Notes under the pieces: model-generated | Told to the model about the DNA's origin: nothing | The model's input: the letters and a program-made list of their open reading frames with translations, nothing else | The model's database searches: none | Translations under genes and position numbers: made by a program | In this document: one piece after another, positions 4,908 through 25,411 of the stretch | Layout: the number at the start of each line of letters is the position of its first letter | Numbering within the stretch: position 1 is the stretch's first letter | NCBI GenBank assembly: GCA_902805675.1 | Contig: CADCTA010000046.1 | Location: 43,719 to 107,718, forward strand | DNA from: an uncultured Chthoniobacterales bacterium | Lineage (GTDB): Bacteria > Verrucomicrobiota > Verrucomicrobiia > Chthoniobacterales > UBA10450 | Length of the DNA: 64,000 nucleotides | Direction of reading: 5' to 3'

Positions 4908-6434
4908 CTACGACGCTGGCTTGATGACCATCGTGATGTCGACGCGCTTGAAGTTCGCCGTGTTGATTCCTTCCGCGCGGTGCGTCTTCCAGCCCGCCGG
5001 AAGCGCCGGATAAAGCTGCGCAGCTAGTCGCGTCGGTAAAACGACGAAGCGGGCGCCCGGCTTCTCCATGAACGGCTGCACTTCGTCGTCGTCGAGATCC
5101 GACATGTAGCCGTCGACGTGTTTGCGCGCATACCAGACGAGACTCGGCTCCTTGTAATCGACGGCGCCGAATTCCATCTCGCGCGTGAGATCGGGCCGCG
5201 CGCTGGCTACCAACTGTTTCGAGGGAAAATACTGCGCCATGATTGGCGTCGCGCAGACAAAGATCAACGCCGCTGCCGCACCCGTGATCGCTGCGCGGCG
5301 CACGAAGCGGCCGCCGTTCTCCGCTTGGGCAAGCGCCTTCGCCAGCAGCAGCGCGAGCAACGGATAAGCGGGCAAGGTGTAGTGCGGCAGCTTCGTCTTC
5401 ACGAACGTGAAAATAACGAAGACGATCGCAATGCCGGCGATCAGGTACCTGTCCAGCGGGTCACGATTGCGCCAAAGCTTCTTCGCCAGCCACGGCAGCT
5501 TCACCGACCAGGGCAGGAAGGTGATGAAGATCGTGACGAAATAGAACGGCAGGGTGCCCAGGTATGTCCACATCGACCTCGCGCCGTGGCCCTCCATCGC
5601 GACGAGCGATCGCGCGACGACATGGCGGCCAATCCCGATGCGCATGAATTCGCCATTCGTGCGCACGAGTGCCGGGATGCCCCAGACCGCGACGATCGAA
5701 AGCGTGACTAAAGCGCCGGTGAAGAAAAGGAAGCGGCGGTTGAGCTGCGCGCCGGGCAGGAAGAAGCCCGTCATTGCCACGGTAAGCAGTGGAAGCCATC
5801 CCAGCGGACCTTTGGCCAGGAACGCGAGCGCGAGCGATAAGTAGAAGATCCACCACCAGCGTCGCTGGATCGTTTGCTGCGGCGTTTCAGGTGTCGCGGT
5901 GGTGCTCAAGCGGTCGCGCAGCAGCTCGTATCCGGCCCAGAACGCCGCCGTCATGAACATCACCAGCCACATGTCCGCGACTGCAGCTTTGGCATGGATG
6001 AACATCTGCACGCAGATCGTGAAGATGATCGCCGCCCACCAGCCGACGCGTTCGTTCGCGATGCGCCTTCCCCACGCGAACAACAACAGTGCCGTGACTG
6101 CCGCTGTGATCACCGACGGCAGCCGCGCGGCAAATTCGTTTTCGCCGAAGAGGCGGTACGTCACCGTGTGCGCCCAGTAGGTCAGCGGCGGCTTGTCGAA
6201 ACGGTATCGATTGTTCAGGTACGGAACGACATAGTCACCGCGCTGGATCATCTCGCGCGAAGCCTCCGCGAAGCGCGGCTCGTCGCGATCGATAAACGGC
6301 ATCGTCCACGTGCCTGCAGCGTGGAAGAGCAGCGCGCCAAAGAAGACGAGCGCGAATTTACGGATTGCAGGTCGCAAGGGCGGATTCAAAGATACAGGCG
6401 GGTGAAACACAAACCGGAATTTCCGTGGTGACAC
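4908..6434 (-). CDS. ArnT-like glycosyltransferase family 39 membrane protein
   Basis: FIDRDEPRFAEASREMIQRGDYVVPYLNNRYRFDKPPLTYW plus multiple TM segments. Confidence 0.85.
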   Translation of the reverse strand: MSPRKFRFVFHPPVSLNPPLRPAIRKFALVFFGALLFHAAGTWTMPFIDRDEPRFAEASREMIQRGDYVVPYLNNRYRFDKPPLTYWAHTVTYRLFGENEFAARLPSVITAAVTALLLFAWGRRIANERVGWWAAIIFTICVQMFIHAKAAVADMWLVMFMTAAFWAGYELLRDRLSTTATPETPQQTIQRRWWWIFYLSLALAFLAKGPLGWLPLLTVAMTGFFLPGAQLNRRFLFFTGALVTLSIVAVWGIPALVRTNGEFMRIGIGRHVVARSLVAMEGHGARSMWTYLGTLPFYFVTIFITFLPWSVKLPWLAKKLWRNRDPLDRYLIAGIAIVFVIFTFVKTKLPHYTLPAYPLLALLLAKALAQAENGGRFVRRAAITGAAAALIFVCATPIMAQYFPSKQLVASARPDLTREMEFGAVDYKEPSLVWYARKHVDGYMSDLDDDEVQPFMEKPGARFVVLPTRLAAQLYPALPAGWKTHRAEGINTANFKRVDITMVIKPAS

Positions 6435-7051
6435 CCCGCCGCCGTCTCGGCTGGTGGCTTCTCGCTGCTCTTGCCGCCGCCTTGTTCATGGCGGTGTCGT
6501 TGATCCTCGATCCGGCGGTCCAGAGCTGGATGACGGCTAATCAATTGCGCGGCGTCCGCTCGTTCATGCGGAACGTCAGCTACGTCGGCGACTGGGTCGG
6601 CCACGCAGTGGCGGCGCTACTGGGGGCATTCATCGCATATCGCGTGAAGAATCCGCGATGGGTCCGGATCTGCATCGCGATGCTCGTAGCCCTCGCAATC
6701 GCTGGCGCAGCGGCGCGCGTGGTGAAAGTCGTAGCAGGACGCTCGCGCCCTTCGGTGCAGGTCGATGTTGGTTTCAATGGGCCGCGTTGGACCGCGAAAT
6801 ATCACGCCTTCCCGTCAGGCCACACTGCCTCCTCGATGGCGTACTTCGGCGTGCTGGCGTTCGCGAATCGTCGCCTCTTCGCTGCGTTGCTGCCGATTCC
6901 GTTGGTCATCGCCTTTTCGCGGATGTACGTCGGCGCGCACCATCTCTCGGACGTGATCGGCGGCGCGCTCATCGGCCTGGCGATCGCGGTGTGGGTGGCG
7001 CACTGGCGGCGCTTCCAAATCGCAAATCGGCCACCGACGATCGCTAGTTGA
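6428..7051 (+). CDS. phosphatase PAP2 family protein
   Basis: AGRSRPS, FPSGHTASS and SRMYVGAHHLSDVIGG PAP2 motifs; GTG 6428 is a plausible start (upstream ATG 6365 overlaps the divergent gene). Confidence 0.85.
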   Translation: MTPRRRLGWWLLAALAAALFMAVSLILDPAVQSWMTANQLRGVRSFMRNVSYVGDWVGHAVAALLGAFIAYRVKNPRWVRICIAMLVALAIAGAAARVVKVVAGRSRPSVQVDVGFNGPRWTAKYHAFPSGHTASSMAYFGVLAFANRRLFAALLPIPLVIAFSRMYVGAHHLSDVIGGALIGLAIAVWVAHWRRFQIANRPPTIAS

Positions 7052-7052
7052 T

Positions 7053-7140
7053 TGGCGGAGGGGGTGGGATTCGAACCCACGGAGGCTTGCGCCTCGCCAG
7101 TTTTCAAGACTGGAGCCATCAACCACTCGACCACCCCTCC
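7053..7140 (-). tRNA. tRNA-Ser (anticodon UGA)
   Basis: minus strand GGAGGGGTGGTCGAGTGG...CCAGTCTTGAAAACTGG...GGGTTCGAATCCCACCCCCTCC; acceptor stem GGAGGGG/CCCCTCC, long variable arm, encoded CCA. Confidence 0.93.
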
Positions 7141-7427: not shown

Positions 7428-8555
7428 ATGGCCTTGAAGCCGCACAAACCAGCCGCAGCGCGCCGGGCTCAGCCGCTCTACGAGGGCTACACGACTTCTG
7501 ATGTGCGCGAGCATCATCGCGGTCGCGGCGCGGACGGGAATCCCGCTAATCGCTTCGAAGCTCTGCGCGTCGAACTCGATCCAGTCGAGCCGGACGAGGA
7601 GGAAGACAGGCCCAAGCTCTCAACGCAGTTCTATCGCGACCTCACGAAAACAATCATCTCGCGAAACAACAGCCCCGACGTCGGATTCGAGACGAGCGTG
7701 AATCCATACCGGGGTTGCGAGCACGGCTGCGCCTACTGCTTCGCGCGACCGACGCACGAATATCTCGGCTTCTCCGCCGGCTTGGATTTCGAGAGCAAGA
7801 TCATGGTGAAAGAGAACGCGCCCGAGCTTCTCGAAGCCGAACTCTCCTCGCCAAAGTGGAAACCGCAGACGGTCGTGATGAGCGGCGTGACGGATCCGTA
7901 TCAACCGGTGGAGCGAAAGCTGAAGATCACGCGCCGCTGCCTCGAGGTGCTGGCGAAGTTCCGCAATCCCGTCGGCATGATCACGAAGAACCGGCTCGTC
8001 ACGCGCGACATCGACGTGTTATCCGAGCTCGCTGCGCACAATGCGGTAGCGATCAACATCTCGATCACATCGCTCGACGTGAAACTGCAGCGCATCCTCG
8101 AGCCGCGCACTTCGCCGCCGCAGGCGCGACTCGACGCCGTCGCGCAGCTGCGTGCGGCTGGGGTTCCCGTCGGCGTGATGGTGGCGCCGATCATCCCGGG
8201 AATTACCGACCACGAAGTGCCGGCAATCCTCGCCGCCTGCGGCGAAGCTGGCGCGCAGTTTGCCGGCTATGTCGTGTTGCGATTGCCGTGGGCGGTGGCG
8301 CCGCTCTTCGAGCGCTGGCTCGACGAACATTTCCCCGGGCGCAAAGAGAAGGTCCTCGGCCGCATCCGCAGCATGCGCGGCAACAAGCTCTACGACTACC
8401 GCTGGGGTAAGCGGCAGGAAGGCGAGGGGATCTTCGCGGAGCAGATCGGGGCGATGTTCGAAGTCGGGCGGCGGCGGGCTGGGATCAGCGATCAGCGTCC
8501 CGCGCTTTCGACCGCCGCATTCCGGCGCCCTAACGAACAGCTGACGCTCTTGTAG
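7428..8555 (+). CDS. PA0069/SPL-like family radical SAM protein
   Basis: NPYRGCEHGCAYCFARPTHEYLGFSAGLDFESKI (CxxxCxYC) and MSGVTDPYQPVERKLKITRRCLE. Confidence 0.87.
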   Translation: MALKPHKPAAARRAQPLYEGYTTSDVREHHRGRGADGNPANRFEALRVELDPVEPDEEEDRPKLSTQFYRDLTKTIISRNNSPDVGFETSVNPYRGCEHGCAYCFARPTHEYLGFSAGLDFESKIMVKENAPELLEAELSSPKWKPQTVVMSGVTDPYQPVERKLKITRRCLEVLAKFRNPVGMITKNRLVTRDIDVLSELAAHNAVAINISITSLDVKLQRILEPRTSPPQARLDAVAQLRAAGVPVGVMVAPIIPGITDHEVPAILAACGEAGAQFAGYVVLRLPWAVAPLFERWLDEHFPGRKEKVLGRIRSMRGNKLYDYRWGKRQEGEGIFAEQIGAMFEVGRRRAGISDQRPALSTAAFRRPNEQLTLL

Positions 8556-8576
8556 GCTGTGACGGCGCAACAGGCC

Positions 8577-8786
8577 GTCATCCGGAGCGCAGTCGAGGGT
8601 CAATGGTAGGGACGCCGCGCTGCGGCGTCCGAGGTGCGTGGACTGCGTCGAGCGGGTGCGGTTATCCTGGGCGTTGCCACGCGGTCCGGACGGCGCAGCG
8701 CGCCGTCCCTACCATCTCCCGTGGCATTACTGCTAGGTAGGCCACGGGATTCTTCGACTCCGCTTCGCTCCGCTCAGAATGACGGC
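8577..8786. repeat. composite intergenic inverted-repeat element (family-2 arms with nested hairpin pair 8603-8631 / 8687-8715)
   Basis: ATGGTAGGGACGCCGCGCTGCGGCGTCCG versus reverse complement of CGGACGGCGCAGCGCGCCGTCCCTACCAT; right arm CCACGGGATTCTTCGACTCCGC...CTCAGAATGAC. Confidence 0.75.
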
Positions 8787-8790
8787 GGGC

Positions 8791-10161
8791 TCAGCGTGCA
8801 GCCCCGCGAGCATGCGCCGCGGCCACCATCCGCTTCTGTTTGCGCATCACCGCCAGCATCGCAAAGCCGCCGATCGCGCCGAAACCAGCCATCATCGGAT
8901 ACCACGCGCCCCAGCCGTGGCGATCGATCAGCCAGCCGGTTAACGGCAACGCGATCGCGGTGCCGTAATACTGAAACGAGTCGATCACGCCCGAGGCGAA
9001 GCCAGCCATCTTGCGCCCGCCGATGTCCATCGGTGCGGCCGCACCGACGATGGAATGCGTCGAGTTCGCGGTGAAGGAAATCAGCACAAGGAACATGCAG
9101 CCAATGAAGATGCCCGCGGGCGTCGGGCCCACCGCTCCCGACATGATCACGCCGGCCGCGACCAGGATCACGCACGTCTCAAGAAAGTAGAGCCCCATCG
9201 CGACCGGCGAGCGGCGTCCGTGAAACACCTTGTCCGAGACCACGCCCGCGCCGAACGACGCGAGCACCGCGACGACCGGCATCAGGTTCATCGTCCAGAA
9301 CACCGCGGCGGGCTTCGCGTCCATATTCAGCTTCAGCTGCTCGACGAAGTAGAGGATCGCGAGCTGATCAGAGCTATTCCGCACAGCACCGGTGCACGCG
9401 TATGCGACGGCGTAGAACCAGACGAGCGGATGCGTGAAGATCGTGACGAACGACTCACGCAAACTCACAGTGACATTTTCGTCACCAGGCTCGCCGTCGT
9501 GCTCGACCACGCCGCGGTAGCCTGCCTCCTCCGGTGTCTGCTTGACGAAGATGACGAATAACACCGCCACCACCGCGGTGATCAGCGGCGGAATGCGGAA
9601 GAGCCACCGCCAATCGCCTTGCGCCACAACCCACACGCCGACGGTGAAGCCTGCGAGGATCACGGGTGCGAGATTGTTGATCGCGACCTGGCCGAGTTGG
9701 ATCATGAACCCGAAAATCCCGGCGAACGTGCCGCGCTCCGTGCGGTTGAACCAGGCGGCGTTGATCTTGATCATCCCCGGCGCGCCCCAGGACTGGAGAT
9801 AGCCGTTCATCAGCCAGATCAATGAGAACGTCGCGAACGTGCCGACGAATGACGAAAAGCCGTAGATCAGATTGATCACGATCGTGCCGACGGCGCCGAT
9901 CAGCATCGCCGGCTTGCCACCGATACGGTCTGTGAGCAGGCCGTTCACGAGCTGGCCGGTGCCGTAAGCAAGCGCCCACGCGCTCAGGATTCCTGTGATC
10001 TGGAATTTGCTGAAGCCGAACTCCTCCACCATCCCGGGCGTCGCCCAACGGAAGTTGTAGCGGCACATGTAATACGAGGCGTAGAGCAGGCCGATGATGA
10101 CCCAGTTCAGGCCGCGGCGCGGGCGGAATCCGGGCGGGTATTGCCTGACGACTGAACTCAT
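8791..10161 (-). CDS. MFS transporter, OPA (GlpT/UhpT-like) family
   Basis: YASYYMCRYNFRWATPGMVEEFGFSK, QSWGAPGMIKINAAWF; ATG at 10161. Confidence 0.85.
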   Translation of the reverse strand: MSSVVRQYPPGFRPRRGLNWVIIGLLYASYYMCRYNFRWATPGMVEEFGFSKFQITGILSAWALAYGTGQLVNGLLTDRIGGKPAMLIGAVGTIVINLIYGFSSFVGTFATFSLIWLMNGYLQSWGAPGMIKINAAWFNRTERGTFAGIFGFMIQLGQVAINNLAPVILAGFTVGVWVVAQGDWRWLFRIPPLITAVVAVLFVIFVKQTPEEAGYRGVVEHDGEPGDENVTVSLRESFVTIFTHPLVWFYAVAYACTGAVRNSSDQLAILYFVEQLKLNMDAKPAAVFWTMNLMPVVAVLASFGAGVVSDKVFHGRRSPVAMGLYFLETCVILVAAGVIMSGAVGPTPAGIFIGCMFLVLISFTANSTHSIVGAAAPMDIGGRKMAGFASGVIDSFQYYGTAIALPLTGWLIDRHGWGAWYPMMAGFGAIGGFAMLAVMRKQKRMVAAAHARGAAR

Positions 10162-10264
10162 CGCGGGCAAAGGATGTACACCGCGCGCGGCAAGGTGAAC
10201 AACAAACTGCAGTGGGCATGCAACCGTTTCCCCCGGCGGCTCGTTTAGTTTCTAAGTGCCCGCA

Positions 10265-11221
10265 ATGCGACCAGTTAGAACGATCAAGCTGGTGGCGCGG
10301 CAGACCGGCCTCTCCGTTCACACGATCCGGGTCTGGGAAAAACGCTACGGAGCTGTCCGCCCGGTCCGCGCGACGAACAACCGCAGGCTCTACTCCGATG
10401 AAGATATCGAGCGGCTGAAGCTGCTACGGCAGGCGACGCTCGCCGGCCATAGCATCGGCCAGATCGCCAGAGCCACGCTCCCGGAGCTGCGCCGGTTGTT
10501 GCGCGATGACCTGAGTACACGCAACACCGGTCCAGGCGCGACGGCGCGGCAGGAGCGCGGCGTGGCCGATGATTTGATCGCCGCCGCAATCCGCGCGACC
10601 GAGCGACTCGACCTCGCTGATCTGCGCGACCTGCTGGATCGCGCGGCGGTCGAGTTAGGGCAGCCGGCAATGCTGCACAAGTTTGTCGCGCCTTTCGCGA
10701 TGGAGATCGGCGAACGCTGGCGCAAGGGCGACCTGAACGTCGCGCACGAGCATTTTGCCACGAGCACGCTCACGGTTTTCCTCGCCGGTTTCGCCCGTCC
10801 GTATCCAACTGGCAGCTCGGCGCACCACTTTGTCATCGCCACGCCCTCCGGACAGTTGCACGAGCTCGGCGCGATTATCGCCGCGGCGGCGGTGCAGAGC
10901 CACGGCTGGCGCGCGACCTACCTCGGCTCATCGCTGCCAATCGAAGAGCTCGTCGGCGCCGCGACGCAGCTGAAGGCGCGCGCGATCGGCCTCAGCATCG
11001 TCTTCCCGCCAGACGACGCGTTGTTGACGCAGGATCTATTGAAGCTGCCGAAGCTGCTGCCACCGGATTGCGCGGTCATCGTCGGCGGCCGCTCCGTTCG
11101 GACCTACGCCGACACCCTCAAGCAGATCGGCGCGATTCAGGTGAACTCGCTCGAGGATCTTTATCCGGTGCTCGATTCGCTTCAGCAAACGAAGCGCGCC
11201 TCGACCAAGCGCGCGAAATGA
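10265..11221 (+). CDS. MerR family transcriptional regulator with cobalamin-binding domain (CarH/LitR-like)
   Basis: MerR HTH (TGLSVHTIRVWEKRYGAVRPVRATNNRRLYSDEDIERL), WRKGDLNVAHEH (Wx9EH), QLHELG, SIV, VGGRS B12-domain landmarks. Confidence 0.9.
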   Translation: MRPVRTIKLVARQTGLSVHTIRVWEKRYGAVRPVRATNNRRLYSDEDIERLKLLRQATLAGHSIGQIARATLPELRRLLRDDLSTRNTGPGATARQERGVADDLIAAAIRATERLDLADLRDLLDRAAVELGQPAMLHKFVAPFAMEIGERWRKGDLNVAHEHFATSTLTVFLAGFARPYPTGSSAHHFVIATPSGQLHELGAIIAAAAVQSHGWRATYLGSSLPIEELVGAATQLKARAIGLSIVFPPDDALLTQDLLKLPKLLPPDCAVIVGGRSVRTYADTLKQIGAIQVNSLEDLYPVLDSLQQTKRASTKRAK

Positions 11222-11263: not shown

Positions 11264-11809
11264 ATGGCATTGAGCATCGAGAGCCTGCACATCGGCATGA
11301 AAGTCTTGCACCCGCGGTATGGCGTCGGCGTGGTCCGCTCGCTCACCACGCACACAGCGGATATCAACTTCGATGACGCGCCGCGCACCATCGCGCCGGA
11401 CACCGCCGGGCTCACCTCCGCTGAGCCGACGGCCACACTCACCGAGCTGCAGATTCCGCTCGAGACTCTGATTCGCGATACGGCGCAGAGCGTGGTGGAA
11501 GCGCTCGGCCTCGAGAAGGACGACGCGATCGTAGAAGGCTTGGCGAATCGCTGGCAGCGCGGCGTGCTGGTGATGCAATCAGCCGACACGTCGTTGCAGC
11601 CGAAAGAGGTGCCGATCGAGACGTTCTTTCACAAGATCGTCATGATCCGAAACAACCTGCGCGTGCTCGAGCAGAAGGTGAACGCGAGCGACAAGCTGAG
11701 CGACGCCGACAAGTTCGACATGCAGCAATACATCACGCGCTGCTACGGCTCGCTCACGACGTTCAACGTCCTGTTCAAGAACAAGGACGAGCAGTTCCGG
11801 ACGACCTAG
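11264..11809 (+). CDS. conserved hypothetical protein
   Basis: 182-aa ORF directly downstream of the MerR gene; HPRYGVGVVRS N-terminal segment; no confident family. Confidence 0.6.
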   Translation: MALSIESLHIGMKVLHPRYGVGVVRSLTTHTADINFDDAPRTIAPDTAGLTSAEPTATLTELQIPLETLIRDTAQSVVEALGLEKDDAIVEGLANRWQRGVLVMQSADTSLQPKEVPIETFFHKIVMIRNNLRVLEQKVNASDKLSDADKFDMQQYITRCYGSLTTFNVLFKNKDEQFRTT

Positions 11810-11835: not shown

Positions 11836-12085
11836 CCTGGGCGGCGCATCACCATGGGGGGGCGGCGCATCACCCTGGGCGGCGCATCATCCTGCGCGGC
11901 GCATCATCCTGCGCGGCGCATCATCCTGCGCGGCGCATCATCCTGCGCGGCGCATCACCCTGCGCGGCGCATCACCCTGCGCGGCGCATCACCCTGGGCG
12001 GCGCATCACCCTGGGCGGCGCATCACCCTGGGCGGCGCATCACCCTGGGCGGCGCATCACCCTGCGCGGCGCATCACCCTGCGCG
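11836..12085. repeat. 17-bp tandem repeat array, about 14 copies (CCTGSGCGGCGCATCAY)
   Basis: regular 17-bp periodicity from 11874 to 12077, one irregular 21-bp copy near 11853. Confidence 0.95.
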
Positions 12086-12212
12086 GTCATCCTGAGCCGC
12101 GTAGACGGCGAAGGACCTCACGCTCGGCCGCGGGTGATGCACACTGACTGCACCGCAAAGACTGACGGCGTGAGGTCCTTCGGCGCGCTTCGCCAGCCTC
12201 AGGATGACCGCG
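12086..12212. repeat. family-1 intergenic inverted-repeat element
   Basis: GTCATCCTGAGCCGCGTAGACGGCGAAGGACCTCACGC ... GCGTGAGGTCCTTCGGCGCGCTTCGCCAGCCTCAGGATGAC. Confidence 0.85.
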
Positions 12213-12227
12213 TGGTTGGCACGCTCG

Positions 12228-13589
12228 TCAGGCGATCACCACCGTTTTTACATTCACAAACTCGCGGATCCCTTCCGCTCCAAGCTCCCGCCCGAAGCCA
12301 GAGCGCTTCACCCCACCAAACGGAAGCCGCGCATCGGAAGCCACCATACCGTTGATGAACACCATCCCGCTCTCGATCTCGCTCGCGAAAAGCTCCTGCT
12401 CGGCCGGATCGTTCGTCCACGCGCTCGCGCCGAGGCCGAATGGCGTGTCGTTAGCCACCGCCACCGCTTCCGCCGCATCGCGCACGCGGAAGATCGCTGC
12501 CACCGGACCGAAGATCTCCTCGCGCGCAGCAGGCGAGTCTGGCGGCACATCGACGAGCACGGTTGGCTCGTAAAAGAAGCCGGGCCGCGCGACACGCTTG
12601 CCGCCGGTCAATAACTTCGCGCCGGCTTGCACTGACGCCTGCACCTGCGCGTCCACGCCTCGCAAGATCTGCTCATTAGCAAGCGGCCCGATCTCGGTCT
12701 CCGGATCGAGCGGATCACCGATATTGAGCGCGCGCATCCGCATCACAAACTGCGCGACGAACTCATCGTACGTCGCCTCGGTGGTAATGAACCGCTTTGC
12801 TGCGATGCAAGATTGGCCGGTGTTGATGGTTCGGGCTTTGACCGCGGTGGAGATCGCCGCGTCGATGTCCGCGCTCGGCATGACGATGAACGGATCGCTG
12901 CCGCCCAGCTCGAGGACGCACTTCTTGATCTGCCGCGCGGCCGCGCTCGCGACCTCCGCGCCTGCGCGTTCGCTGCCGGTTAACGTCACCGCTTTGACAC
13001 GCGGATCGTCGATGATCTGCCGCGTCTGCTCGGTTTCGATCAACAGCGTCTGAAGAACGGCTTCCGCAAAGCCCGCACGGTGGAACACATCTTCAATCGC
13101 GAGCGCGCACTGCGGCACACTCGCGGCATGCTTCAGCAGGCAGACATTCCCGGCCATCAACGCCGGGGCGGCGAACCGAAACACCTGCCAGAGCGGGAAG
13201 TTCCACGGCATGATGGCGAGGATCACACCGAGCGGCTGATAGCGAATGTAGCTGCGCGTTGCGTTTGATTCGACTGCTTGCCGAGCGAGAAACCGCTCCG
13301 CGTTCTCGGCATAATACCGGCAACCGCCTGCGCACTTTGTCACTTCCTCGACCGCAGCGGGGAACAGTTTGCCCATCTCCAGCGTGACGGTGCGCGCGAG
13401 CGTCTCCTTCTCCTGTTCGAGAATCTCGGCGGCGTGCAACATGCATTGGGCGCGCGCGGCGAAATTGGTACGCCGATGGAGCTGAAATGCGAGTTCCGCC
13501 GCGACCAGCTTCATCTCGATTTCCTCGGTGCTCAGCGCAGGGAAGGTGCGGAGCGTTTCACCCGTAGCCGGGTTCACCGACGCGATCAT
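12228..13589 (-). CDS. NAD(P)-dependent succinate-semialdehyde dehydrogenase-type aldehyde dehydrogenase
   Basis: NPATGETL, MPWNFPLWQVFRFAAPALMAGN, LELGGSDPFIVM, GQSCIAAKRF. Confidence 0.87.
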   Translation of the reverse strand: MIASVNPATGETLRTFPALSTEEIEMKLVAAELAFQLHRRTNFAARAQCMLHAAEILEQEKETLARTVTLEMGKLFPAAVEEVTKCAGGCRYYAENAERFLARQAVESNATRSYIRYQPLGVILAIMPWNFPLWQVFRFAAPALMAGNVCLLKHAASVPQCALAIEDVFHRAGFAEAVLQTLLIETEQTRQIIDDPRVKAVTLTGSERAGAEVASAAARQIKKCVLELGGSDPFIVMPSADIDAAISTAVKARTINTGQSCIAAKRFITTEATYDEFVAQFVMRMRALNIGDPLDPETEIGPLANEQILRGVDAQVQASVQAGAKLLTGGKRVARPGFFYEPTVLVDVPPDSPAAREEIFGPVAAIFRVRDAAEAVAVANDTPFGLGASAWTNDPAEQELFASEIESGMVFINGMVASDARLPFGGVKRSGFGRELGAEGIREFVNVKTVVIA

Positions 13590-13595
13590 GCGCTT

Positions 13596-15065
13596 CTATA
13601 GACGCAGACCTTTGGGAATCAAAAGCCGGTCCAGCAGGTCGAACGTCCACTGCACGAGCAGCGCGAGAACTGCGGCTGGGATCGCGCCCTGCAGGATGGT
13701 GGCGTGATCGTTCAAGTTGAGCCCGCTGATGATCGGCTCGCCCAGGCCGCCGGCGCCGATCAGCGCCGCGAGCGTCGCCGTGCCTATGTTGATCACGGCG
13801 CTCGTTTTCACCCCGGCCAGGATGGTGCGCGAAGCCATCGGAAGGTAGATCTGTCGCAGCCGCGCTCCGGCCGAGAGGCCGAGTGCGATGGCGGATTCGC
13901 GAATTGGCTGCGCGATGTCCTGCAAGCCGGTGGCCGTGTTTCGCACGATCGGGAGCAGACCGTAGAGGAACAACGCCGCGATCGCGGTGCGCGCCGAGAT
14001 TCCGAAGAACGGCACCGGCACGAGCAGCGCAAGCAAGGCGAGCGACGGGACGGTTTGCACCGCGCTCGTCACGGCGAGTATGACGTGACCGATCGCACCT
14101 CCGCGACTCGCCACGATGCCCAGCGGAATTCCGACGAGCACGGCAAGCAGCAGCGAGATGCACGTCAGCTGAAGATGACGCGAGATCCACCGCGTGAGCT
14201 TTGCGGTTAACGACTCCCCCGCGCGAGGCGCGATGCTTTCGCTGCCGCCGCTGAAGTAGAGCTCGGCAGCACGCGCATAGTTCTTCGTCCGCTCCGCCTC
14301 GGCGTTCAGCCGGATCATTCGTGGCTCGTCGATCGTGCCTTGCAGCTTCTCGAGCGCGGCTTTCGCCTGCGGATCAATGGACGCTCGATAGAGAAACACG
14401 GCTTTGTATTGCGGAAAGAAGCCGAGGTCGTCCTCGAGCGTGACGAGATCGTACTCGGCGATCTTTGCATCAGTCGAGTAGGCGTCTTTCACATCGATCT
14501 CGCCGCGCCGCAGCGCCTCGTAGCCGAGCCCATGATCGATCCCGCGAACGTCCGGCGGGGCGAGCTGGTAGCGATCGGCGAGCGGCCGCCACCCGTCGCG
14601 CCGGCTGAGGAACTCGTGCGTAACGCCGAACCGCATTGCGGGATGCGCACGTAGATCGCTGATCGTGCGAATACGCGCCCGCTCCGCTCCTGCGCGTGAC
14701 ATGACGAGCGCATACGTGTTGTTGAATCCGAGCTCGCCCGACACTTGCACGCCGACCTTCGCCAGCTCTGCGCGGATCACATCGAGCGACATCTTCTGCG
14801 GCGATTTCAGGATCTCTTCGGCGATCGTGCCGGTGTATTCCGGGTAAACAGCGATCTGGCCGCTACGCAGCGCTTCCCAAAGGATGATCGTGCCGCCCAT
14901 GCCCTGCCGGTGCTCGGATGCGCTGCCCGCATCGCTGAGCGCGCGCTTCGCGATCTCCGCCAGCACATACGATTCGGTAAACTTCTTCGAGCCGATCAAC
15001 ACCGGCTCGCTCGCCGCGGCAGCGATCCCCGCCGCCAGGATCAACGTGACGAGTGCCGTTTTCAT
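13596..15065 (-). CDS. osmoprotectant/EgtU-type ABC transporter, fused solute-binding (N-term) and permease (C-term) protein
   Basis: signal peptide then IGSKKFTESYVLAEI...GMGGTIILWEALRSGQIAVYPEYTGTIAEEIL; permease ESAIALGLSAGARLRQIYLPMASRTILAGVKTSAVINIGTATLAALIGAGGLGEPI. Confidence 0.9.
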   Translation of the reverse strand: MKTALVTLILAAGIAAAASEPVLIGSKKFTESYVLAEIAKRALSDAGSASEHRQGMGGTIILWEALRSGQIAVYPEYTGTIAEEILKSPQKMSLDVIRAELAKVGVQVSGELGFNNTYALVMSRAGAERARIRTISDLRAHPAMRFGVTHEFLSRRDGWRPLADRYQLAPPDVRGIDHGLGYEALRRGEIDVKDAYSTDAKIAEYDLVTLEDDLGFFPQYKAVFLYRASIDPQAKAALEKLQGTIDEPRMIRLNAEAERTKNYARAAELYFSGGSESIAPRAGESLTAKLTRWISRHLQLTCISLLLAVLVGIPLGIVASRGGAIGHVILAVTSAVQTVPSLALLALLVPVPFFGISARTAIAALFLYGLLPIVRNTATGLQDIAQPIRESAIALGLSAGARLRQIYLPMASRTILAGVKTSAVINIGTATLAALIGAGGLGEPIISGLNLNDHATILQGAIPAAVLALLVQWTFDLLDRLLIPKGLRL

Positions 15066-15805
15066 CTCATCGCGACGCCGCGTTGCGCGTTCAGGAACTC
15101 GGTGACAAAGGCGTTCGCCGGTCTTTCGCGGAGATCCGATAGACCGCCTTCTTGAACGACGCGGCCGTCGTTCATTAGCACGATCTTGTGGCCGAGGAAC
15201 GCAGCCTCCGCGAGATCGTGAGTGACGAGAATTGTCGTCTGCCCGAGGCGCTCGAAGATCTCCTTCAGGTCTCGTTGCAACGCGGCTCTCACCATCGGAT
15301 CGAGCGCGCCAAGCGGCTCGTCTAGCAACAACAACTGCGGCGAGAGTGCGAGCGCGCGCATCAAACTGACGCGCTGACGTTGTCCGCCGGACAACTCACC
15401 GGGATATCGCGAGAGACCTTCGACCGGGAATCGCGTCAGTGCGGCTAACTCTGCCAGCCGCGACTCATTGTCCGTTTCAGGTTGGCGAAGATGCCGCGCC
15501 ATCAGGAGCACGTTGTCGCGGGCGGTGAGGTGAGGGAACAGGCCACCTTCCTGGATGACGTAGCCCATCCGCCGCCGCAGCATGGCGATGTTGTTCTCGC
15601 CGACAGTCTCGCCGTCGATGCTGACGGTGCCGCTGTCGGGTTGCAGCAGTCCCACGATCAGCCGCAACACGGTCGACTTTCCGCAACCGCTCGGCCCGAT
15701 CAGGACGGTGGTCTTGCCGCGTTCGAATGCGAGCTCCGTCGGTGCGAGTGCAACGTTTGAGCCGAAGCGCTTGCTCACGCCGGCGAGTCGCACCAGATCG
15801 TCCAC
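15062..15805 (-). CDS. ABC transporter ATP-binding protein (OpuCA/EgtV-like)
   Basis: Walker A GPSGCGKST, signature LSGGQRQR, Walker B LLLLDEPLGALDP; 4-bp ATGA overlap with 13596-15065; GTG start. Confidence 0.92.
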   Translation of the reverse strand: MDDLVRLAGVSKRFGSNVALAPTELAFERGKTTVLIGPSGCGKSTVLRLIVGLLQPDSGTVSIDGETVGENNIAMLRRRMGYVIQEGGLFPHLTARDNVLLMARHLRQPETDNESRLAELAALTRFPVEGLSRYPGELSGGQRQRVSLMRALALSPQLLLLDEPLGALDPMVRAALQRDLKEIFERLGQTTILVTHDLAEAAFLGHKIVLMNDGRVVQEGGLSDLRERPANAFVTEFLNAQRGVAMR

Positions 15806-15811
15806 GCGCGG

Positions 15812-16759
15812 CTAGTCTGGCACGATGAGGTAGAAAAGGCCAAACAGCTCCTGGCGATCCGTCCAGAGCCGCCGGAACTCGAAGCCCGCACTGCGCGCCA
15901 GCGCGATGAAGCCGTTGCGTGAGTGTTTGTACGAGTACTCGGTGATGATGTTTTCGCCTTCTTCGAACCCGAACTGCTCGGTGCCGAGTCGCACCGTCTG
16001 TCGCGCCGCACTGATCAGGTGCATCTCGATGCGACCCTCGAGCGCGTTGTAGACCGCGCGATGCGCCCAATTAGCGACCTCAAAATCCGCACCGAGCTCG
16101 CGGTTCGCTCTAACGAGCAGATTCAGGTTGAACTCAGCCGTCACGCCCGCGGCGTCGTTATAAGCGCGTTCGATGATCTCGGGTGGCTTCTGCAGATCTA
16201 CTCCGATGAGCAAAGCACCGCCCCGCCCGGCCATCTTCGCGATGCGCTCGAGAAAATGGCACGCGGGCTCTGGCTCCAGATTACCTACCGTCGAGCCCGG
16301 GAAATAGACGACGATGCGGTCGCCCTTCCGGCTCGGCTCCGGCAGCGTGAACTCCTCGAGGAAGTCGGCGCAGATCGGCAGCACTTCGAGCGTCGGCATG
16401 GCAGTCGACAGCTGCGTTGCGGATGTGGCGAGCGATTCCTTGTCCACGTCTACGGGCATGTAGGCGACCGGCTCGGCTAGTTGCGCGAGCAGCGCGCGCG
16501 TCTTGCGTCCGCCACCGGTGCCTAGTCCCACGATCTCGCAGCGCGGCCCGAGCAGCGCGGCGATTTCTTCGCCGTCAGTAGCGAGGATCTCCGTCTCAGC
16601 GCGCGTGATGTAATACTCCGGCACCTCGCAGATCTGGCGGAAGAGCGCGGCGCCGCGCTCATCGTAGAAATACTTGCAGGGCAGCGTGCGCGGTGAGCTC
16701 GAGAGCCCGGCGATCGCGTCCCGCAGGAAGTCGGACGTGGTGGGTTGGAGATCGAGCAC
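15812..16759 (-). CDS. egtD: L-histidine N(alpha)-methyltransferase
   Basis: LPCKYFYDERGAALFRQICEVPEYYITRAETEIL, ELGTGGGRKT-like loop, YFPGSTVGNLEP, YSYKHSRNGF; GTG start at 16759 inferred. Confidence 0.93.
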   Translation of the reverse strand: MLDLQPTTSDFLRDAIAGLSSSPRTLPCKYFYDERGAALFRQICEVPEYYITRAETEILATDGEEIAALLGPRCEIVGLGTGGGRKTRALLAQLAEPVAYMPVDVDKESLATSATQLSTAMPTLEVLPICADFLEEFTLPEPSRKGDRIVVYFPGSTVGNLEPEPACHFLERIAKMAGRGGALLIGVDLQKPPEIIERAYNDAAGVTAEFNLNLLVRANRELGADFEVANWAHRAVYNALEGRIEMHLISAARQTVRLGTEQFGFEEGENIITEYSYKHSRNGFIALARSAGFEFRRLWTDRQELFGLFYLIVPD

Positions 16760-16784
16760 GGTAAACGGCGCGGCTGGAGTCCGC

Positions 16785-18125
16785 TCAGGTAACGTCGCGC
16801 GCGAGCCGGATGCCAGTGAATTGCCACCGTTTCTCCGGCTGGAAAAAATTGCGATAGGTCGGCCGGATGTGATTGCGCGAAGTGGCGCACGAGCCACCGC
16901 GCAGCACCATCTGGTTGCACATAAATTTGCCGTTGTACTCGCCGAGCGCGCCCGGCACTGCGCGATAGCCGGGGTACGGGAGATAGGCGCTACGCGTCCA
17001 TTCCCAGACATCGCCGAACATCTGGAGTAATTGCCCGTCCTTCGCGCTGGCCGATGCGCCGGCGGGATGAAAGCGTTCCGCGTCGACGAAGTTCCCGTCG
17101 ATCGTTTGCCCGGCAGCGGCGCGCTCCCATTCGAATTCGGTCGGGAGGCGTGCGCCGTCCCAGTTCGCATACGCGTCCGCCTCGAAATAGCTGACGTGCG
17201 TGACGGGTTCGGACTCGTTGATCGGCCGGAAGCCTGAGAGTGTGAAGTTCCACCAGCCGTCCTCGCGCTTCACCCAATAGAGCGGCGCGTCCCAGCGTTG
17301 TTCGTTAACGGTGCTCCAGCCGAGCGACAGCCAAAACTCCGGCCGCGTGTAGCCGCCCGCGTCTATGAACGCGAGATACTCGCCGTTCGTTATCGGGCGG
17401 TTCGATAGCGAAAACGCCGGGACGAACGCGCGGTGCTGCGGGCCCTCGTTGTCGTAGGAAAAGGCATCACCTTTGTGGCCGATCGAGACCATCGCTTCGT
17501 CGAATTCCACAAACCGTTGCGGCGCGACCTTGCGGCTTTCGCGTTCCTCGTCGGTCGATTCGAAAACGGGATAAAGGGGGTTCTGCGCGAAGACGTGCTT
17601 GATATCGGTGATCAACAGCTCCTGGTGTTGCTGCTCGTGGTTCAGCCCGAGGACGAGCACCGGCTCGATGTCGTCGAGCAGTGCATCGTTCGCGCCTTCG
17701 AGCAGCTTGATCAGGCACTCGTCGACTGACTGCCGGTAGTGATACGTCTCCGCGACGGTCGGACGCGAGATCAGCCCGCGCAGGTCGCGCCGGTGCATGT
17801 CGCCGGCAGCGTTGTAGTACGAATTAAAGAGATACGCATACTGCGGCACTTCGGTGCGATACCGCTGCATCCATACCTTCAGGACGAAGGTCTCGAAGAA
17901 CCATGTGGTGTGCGCAAGGTGCCACTTCGTCGGACTGACATCGGGGCATGACTGCACCACGAAATCTTCCGGCTGCAGATTCCGGCAAAGGCGCGAGGAG
18001 AGGTCGCGGACCTGGCTGTAGCGCGCGGCGAGCGCCTGTGCTCGACTCGACGCGCGGCGTTCTACTCCGTCCGACCCGGTGACCGCTGGCTGATTATCGA
18101 CGATTGGGGCCTCAGGCGCCTTCAA
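16785..18125 (-). CDS. egtB: ergothioneine biosynthesis protein EgtB (sulfoxide synthase; DinB-like + FGE-like domains)
   Basis: KWHLAHTTWFFETFVL, GLNHEQQHQELLITDIKH, PITNGEYLAFIDAGGY, FGDVWEWTRSAYLPYPGYR, VLRGGSCATSRNHIRPTYRNFF. Confidence 0.95.
   Translation of the reverse strand: MKAPEAPIVDNQPAVTGSDGVERRASSRAQALAARYSQVRDLSSRLCRNLQPEDFVVQSCPDVSPTKWHLAHTTWFFETFVLKVWMQRYRTEVPQYAYLFNSYYNAAGDMHRRDLRGLISRPTVAETYHYRQSVDECLIKLLEGANDALLDDIEPVLVLGLNHEQQHQELLITDIKHVFAQNPLYPVFESTDEERESRKVAPQRFVEFDEAMVSIGHKGDAFSYDNEGPQHRAFVPAFSLSNRPITNGEYLAFIDAGGYTRPEFWLSLGWSTVNEQRWDAPLYWVKREDGWWNFTLSGFRPINESEPVTHVSYFEADAYANWDGARLPTEFEWERAAAGQTIDGNFVDAERFHPAGASASAKDGQLLQMFGDVWEWTRSAYLPYPGYRAVPGALGEYNGKFMCNQMVLRGGSCATSRNHIRPTYRNFFQPEKRWQFTGIRLARDVT

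Positions 18126-25339: not shown

Positions 25340-25411
<72 letters not shown>

Follow-up and report, generated by a model that had tools for sequence, protein, structure and literature searches.

The gene at 10265-11221 of the window, by which we mean the whole 64,000-nucleotide stretch of DNA that was analysed, raises the question of whether it encodes a B12-based photoreceptor of the CarH type, as an earlier note had proposed, and which genes such a regulator would control. The nearest named contigs to the window are Chthoniobacterales MAGs (81%). The open reading frame gives a 318-residue translation with zero internal stops, and its dN/dS against the nearest relative (G001; the window genome is G000) is 0.148/1.37, about 0.11; the gene is therefore under purifying selection. 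The gene, the domains and motifs of its product and its immediate neighbours are as follows.

10265 to 11221, forward strand: carH-type gene, 318 amino acids, with MerR, B12-binding_2 and B12-binding domains
Residues 6-69, 108-170 and 188-290 of its product: MerR DNA-binding domain, four-helix B12-binding_2 domain and Rossmann B12-binding domain
10718 to 10753, forward strand: Wx9EH motif WRKGDLNVAHEH, W152 to H163, seen in the sequence and conserved in homologue alignments
10850 to 10870, forward strand: axial-histidine loop GQLHELG, G196 to G202, with Q at the E/D position
8791 to 10170, reverse strand: OPA-type MFS transporter gene, divergent neighbour of carH
11264 to 11809, forward strand: gene of 181 amino acids, 3' of carH after a 42-bp gap

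The earlier description of a MerR helix-turn-helix followed by a cobalamin module was borne out, as MerR_1, B12-binding_2 and B12-binding each exceeded their Pfam gathering scores. The domain order of class I CarH/LitR regulators (MerR, four-helix, Rossmann) was found by Pfam, in an AlphaFold2 model (mean pLDDT 90.6) and with Foldseek. By sequence the closest solved relative was Thermus thermophilus CarH (TtCarH; E 1e-25), with which window CarH is colinear at 31% identity over 304 residues, and full-length TtCarH also topped the Foldseek list obtained with the model (E 2e-16), with the cobalamin domain of CtMerR (8jbs) lower. The full-length TM-score of about 0.5 is modest because the single-chain model arranges the domains differently; when the cobalamin domain is aligned by itself, the fit is 3.0-3.7 Å. 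Against the CarH equivalog NCBIfam NF052513, window CarH scored 122.6 bits, below the curated cut-off of 400 of a narrow model that gives TtCarH 509.9 bits and a Bacillaceae homologue 142. The Bacillaceae homologues are 22-26% identical to window CarH and carry the loop GE[WM]HE[LI]G.

The cobalamin motifs previously pointed out were all recovered from the translation: Wx9EH exactly, as W152-x9-E162-H163; the axial-ligand-type histidine of QLHELG, as H199 within G196-G202; and the SxV and GG landmarks at published CarH spacing, as S244-I-V246, 41 residues after G202, and GG at 274-275. Against the published motif D/ExHx2G-x41-SxT/V-x22-27-GG (PMC9304148) everything matches except Q197 at the D/E position, and in alignments of 26 and of 35 homologues the conservation of W152, E162, H163 and H199 is 90% or more. 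The glutamine, already remarked upon as a departure from the usual E/D, is nearly fixed across the clade: relatives of at least 37% identity carry GQxHE[LI]G, the exceptions being one GELHELG and one Gemmatirosa protein without the histidine, and Q also stands at this position in two Bacteroidota proteins. Since several of the clade's Q proteins are encoded beside carotenoid genes, Q197 looks, from these alignments, like a clade trait and not like decay or a defect. The SignatureFinder light-responsive cobalamin signature (GxxW, EH, GxxH, GxxxP) does not require the glutamate before the histidine (PMC11796333), and it is complete in window CarH as GERW149-152, EH162-163, GQLH196-199 and GSSLP221-225.

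Domain order, Wx9EH, axial histidine and GxxxP are thus shared with TtCarH (PDB 5c8d, 5c8e, 5c8f; L141). In contrast to TtCarH, window CarH has Q for E before the axial histidine, L and S at the positions of R176 and D201, and Arg153 at the position of His132, the second ligand of the TtCarH light state (PMC10442372). A bis-His light state is therefore not expected in window CarH. The His132-type upper ligand that it lacks is a non-universal, non-defining feature with documented variation. CtMerR of Chloracidobacterium thermophilum (PDB 8jbs, 8jbt; PMC11796333), which matches window CarH by both sequence and fold and shares its full signature, has Arg at the same position, yet passes from tetramer to monomer in the light (PMC11796333); the CtMerR DNA-binding domain differs, being 25% identical to that of TtCarH (PMC11796333). 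By analogy, the light switch of window CarH may still work without the bis-His state. The TtCarH H132A variant, which in one study mostly gave no light-driven dissociation, counts against light switching here.

The two substitutions, Q for E/D and Arg for His132, would also fit a derivative of the CarA-like or class II-like kind, no longer dependent on AdoCbl and controlled by a partner protein, and in the Gemmatirosa relative (L140) the loss of the W, of the EH context and of the axial histidine is clear. We nevertheless consider such a derivative very unlikely here: all four residues (W, E, H and the axial histidine) are present in window CarH and strongly conserved in its clade, whereas CarA is without the Trp (PMC9304148) and class II LitR without the second B12 domain (PMC9758184). 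The L140 protein itself, a clade member encoded at 7968-8930 of Gemmatirosa kalamazoonensis plasmid 2 with the motif remnants HDGSLRAPHRH and GQFEELG, is by its sequence probably a B12-independent descendant.

It could also be envisaged that window CarH binds AdoCbl as a sensor of B12 supply, light being irrelevant in nature, since any AdoCbl-requiring repressor also reports B12 supply and light sensing by window CarH is a prediction. This is unlikely in view of the conservation of the adenosyl-contacting Wx9EH together with the complete light signature, and of the linkage of relatives to carotenoid and photolyase genes. Moreover, B12 uptake or synthesis genes are absent from the carH locus, and Rfam found no cobalamin riboswitch in the window. 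The same Rfam search placed two tRNA genes on the reverse strand, at 7056-7140 and 25340-25411. As sequence, predicted fold, signature residues, clade and operator type (see below) all fit, window CarH is predicted to be a class I, AdoCbl-binding CarH/LitR regulator, a supported and convincing new member of the family, and the CarH-type identity first proposed for it is upheld.

Among 58 relatives, the CarH protein was found in all seven members of the genus and in three others; a literature search on CarH with Verrucomicrobia returned no relevant paper. In the tree, the six unlinked ('orphan') CarH proteins of the genus form one clade (99/100), separate from the crt-linked G005 and G024 proteins, within a larger clade (99/98) that extends to Akkermansiaceae, Ignavibacteriota and Gemmatimonadota. 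A carH gene stands divergent to a crtI/ALDH/crtI triplet in G005, which belongs to the same genus, in G024, in G056 and in one Ignavibacteriota MAG; other carH neighbours in the clade are sigma, photolyase, DUF1295, SRPBCC and fasciclin genes. In a Gemmatimonadota MAG (L020), adjacent MerR-B12 proteins (5986-6957 and 7897-8826) flank a fasciclin gene, and fasciclin genes also lie beside the regulator in L017 and L021.

The surroundings of carH in the window are as the earlier note had them: the gene is divergent to an OPA-type MFS gene, the best NCBIfam matches of which (PgtP/UhpC/GlpT-like) are below cut-off, and upstream of an uncharacterised gene, with zero Pfam or NCBIfam matches. Both the divergent layout and the 42-bp gap would suit a local regulator of the transporter, of the 181-aa gene or of both. 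Such a role is nevertheless very unlikely: the window carH orthologues adjoin the 181-aa gene, but only in some genomes also the transporter; the 181-aa gene is conserved in family members without CarH; and the local repeats have decayed in the window while those at a distant sigma gene persist (see below). Because it is found in these CarH-less members, the 181-aa gene was rejected as a CarH partner and is probably a mere neighbour of carH; the transporter is probably likewise a neighbour outside the CarH system.

Between the 181-aa gene and an SSADH-like gene, a 17-bp unit (GCGGCGCATCACCCTGC) is repeated in tandem in about 13 copies with 97% match (11862-12086). A gene row on the reverse strand (12228-18125) comprises the SSADH-like ALDH, an OpuAC-permease fusion and its ABC ATPase, an EgtD-like protein (histidine-specific methyltransferase) and an EgtB-like one (DinB/FGE), possibly representing ergothioneine synthesis beside a transporter that may take ergothioneine or betaine. 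The ALDH (12228-13589) was rejected as a member of a crt triplet, as it is succinate-semialdehyde-dehydrogenase-like, unlike the crt-linked ALDHs.

The carH promoters of the genus point to a possible operator. Those of G001, G003 and G006 carry two tandem 11-bp units near the start codon, TGTCTA-N5-TGTCTA, and that of G004 a tandem 11-bp pair with one mismatch. TAGACA, the reverse complement of TGTCTA, fits the published CarH 11-bp direct repeat nnnnTnnACAn with its half-site TnnACA (PMC9304148), and the TtCarH operator is alike in having 11-bp direct repeats with TnnACA (PMC9304148); our repeat test, applied to the T. thermophilus carH promoter, gave a shuffle p of 0.003. Genome-wide motif scans were pattern searches, and the tandem pattern was scanned in 14 whole genomes. 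It gave ten matches in the seven genus genomes, each of them at either carH or a single orthologous gene, which encodes an ECF sigma factor and lies between hemL and a glycosyltransferase-type gene. In the window genome its position is:

G000:C1, about 69090 to 69733: ECF sigma gene, on another contig than carH

The sigma promoters hold four in-register units, some of them degenerate: TGTCTAGTATA, CGTCTAATATA, CGACTAATATA and TGTCTATCCAA in G001, and TGTCTAGGTTT, CGTCTATTAAA, TGATTATATGA and TGTCCACCCAC, an intact operator, in G000, where the repeats span the spacer and -10 region of the putative promoter. The fourth unit, overlapping the start codon, may belong to the coding sequence. A tandem pair with at most one mismatch was present in 5/5 sigma promoters of CarH genomes and in 0/11 of CarH-less relatives, ten of these orthologues having 4-5 mismatches and one having 3. 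The sigma homologue of G050, divergent to a carH, has a tandem pair with one mismatch; the sigma gene was not found in G006, a genome 76% complete. On this sequence evidence, the tandem 11-bp TnnACA repeats are putative CarH operators at the sigma gene and at the carH genes of the genus, and the ECF sigma gene, a well-supported candidate, is the most likely CarH target, in trans. The regulon, which the earlier note had called unclear, thus gains a candidate, although not a local one. The arrangement resembles, going by the published description, that of the Bacillus (Priestia) megaterium CarH/LitR operators, with four repeats, or three and a pseudorepeat, overlapping the -35 or -10 (PMC9304148).

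At carH of the window itself, two elements were recognised.

10219 to 10248, forward strand: putative ECF-type carH promoter TGCAACC-N16-CGTTTAG, in a layout shared with relatives
10241 to 10254, forward strand: decayed tandem repeat TCGTTTA GTTTCTA, seen by alignment with G001, G003, G004 and G006

The TGCAACC-N16-CGTTTAG layout recurs at carH of G001, G002 and G004 and at the sigma promoters of G000 and G002, and is suggestive of an ECF-type promoter of carH at 10219-10248, a stretch that was not significant alone in the PWM test. The carH operator of the relatives reads TTGTCTA ACGT TTGTCTA; in the window 4 bp are lost between the units, and the best in-register repeat pair has 6 mismatches. 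The CarH repeats at window carH have decayed, barring an assembly error there. Because of this decay, the region 10162-10264 may, as far as its sequence goes, bind little CarH in the window species. A TGTACA in the window intergenic region was rejected as an operator, as it is not conserved among relatives.

Carotenoid and photolyase genes had been reported as missing near carH. The former do occur elsewhere in the genome; a search of it for FAD_binding_7 photolyases gave none.

G000:C66:1772-6104: crtI/ALDH/crtI cluster, unlinked to carH, its crtI-family matches scoring 540 and 408 bits

PF03441 was unmatched in the genus genomes, and photolyase was rejected as a CarH target on that ground; an operator of CarH repeats at the crtN promoters of unlinked clusters was likewise rejected, none being present. 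Instead, the crtN promoters of G000, G002, G003, G004 and G006 have TGAATCC-N16-CGAA just 5' of the start; the spacer between has diverged, and the whole has the apparent layout of an ECF promoter. At the carH-linked crt loci CarH repeats are present and the ECF-like promoter is absent, so that crt loci have one or the other, never both.

The sigma promoters and several carH promoters read GCATCC/GCAACC-N16-CGT, with a -35/-10 layout and 16-nt spacer like those of crtN. This likeness in layout suggests, by analogy with LitS, which reads crt, that one sigma factor reads its own promoter, carH and crt. CarH and a close crtN, found in 10 and 9 of the 58 genomes, occur together in 8 (hypergeometric p 2e-7, uncorrected for kinship). 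Six exact matches to the ECF-like promoter in G000 were discarded as support because the argument is circular, the pattern having been built from three of them (the sigma, carH and crtN promoters); of the other matches, one is conserved coding sequence, and the remainder fall within ORFs or at their edges. The PWM link between crtN and the sigma and carH promoters is weak (p 0.014 for sigma of G000, most others not significant). In G001, carH and the sigma operator are present and a crt cluster was not found. Conversely, G030 is without CarH or a close sigma orthologue, yet its crtN promoter, TGAATCC-N16-CGGA, is nearly identical, and another ECF sigma factor may therefore read crtN. This promoter type is borne by the crtI/ALDH/crtI cluster of G030:C61 (L247).

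These last three points would be expected if CarH controls the sigma gene and the sigma factor drives a non-carotenoid light-stress regulon, with crt under another ECF sigma factor. The co-occurrence of carH with close crtN and the similar -35/-10 layout and 16-nt spacer of the sigma, carH and crtN promoters speak against it, and we give this alternative a substantial but less than even chance. That the sigma factor of G000 itself transcribes crt stands at about even odds.

We consider it likely that window CarH is a light-released AdoCbl repressor with the sigma gene as its main target and, possibly, crt under the sigma factor. The domains, the motifs, the repeats confined to two promoters and the crt cluster with its conserved promoter can all be read from the DNA; AdoCbl binding, the light response and repression are the predicted steps. 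In the dark, AdoCbl, of which a PduO-type adenosyltransferase encoded in the window genome is a source, would be sandwiched by the four-helix bundle, with W152, E162 and H163, and the Rossmann domain, whose H199 would ligate the cobalt. AdoCbl-CarH would then oligomerise and bind the tandem 11-bp repeats (TGTCTA and TAGACA on opposite strands), in the window organism mainly at the sigma promoter on G000:C1. In most relatives CarH would also repress carH, through the operator that is decayed in the window genome. Light would break the Co-C bond, CarH would leave the DNA and the sigma factor would be made; it may then act on the crtI/ALDH/crtI cluster through the TGAATCC-N16-CGAA promoter, the least sure of these steps.

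Such wiring is probably LitR/LitS-like. In Streptomyces coelicolor, as described in PMC12705666, which cites Takano 2005, a B12-based MerR light regulator likewise controls an ECF sigma factor, LitS, which transcribes crt (PMC12705666). The likeness is one of wiring, by description, and its sigma-to-crt step is here only proposed. In contrast to the light-released repression envisaged for CarH, S. coelicolor LitR is said to promote the transcription of litS when illuminated (PMC12705666), and whereas litR/litS are used as one unit (PMC12705666), carH, sigma and crt here lie on three contigs. Thermus differs further: its carH adjoins crtB and phr, while window carH is unlinked to such genes, and it lacks the sigma relay proposed here.

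Within the genus, CarH may have been rewired, with direct repression of an adjacent crt locus in one species (G005) and control through a distant ECF sigma gene bearing CarH repeats in others (G000-G004), autorepression having been lost in the window genome and sigma left as the sole detectable target; we offer this tentatively, as an idea with slightly less than an even chance. With the Chthoniobacterales MAG relatives, an uncultured soil lineage joins the bacteria with predicted B12-based light sensing, and window CarH gains a concrete candidate operator and target. As the clade-wide glutamine shows, a search for such proteins by the textbook E/DxHxxG motif is too strict. Regulators of the CarH/LitR kind are already known, and the interesting part is how differently they are wired in close relatives: two wirings of one photoreceptor family would be a naturally occurring example of rewired regulation.
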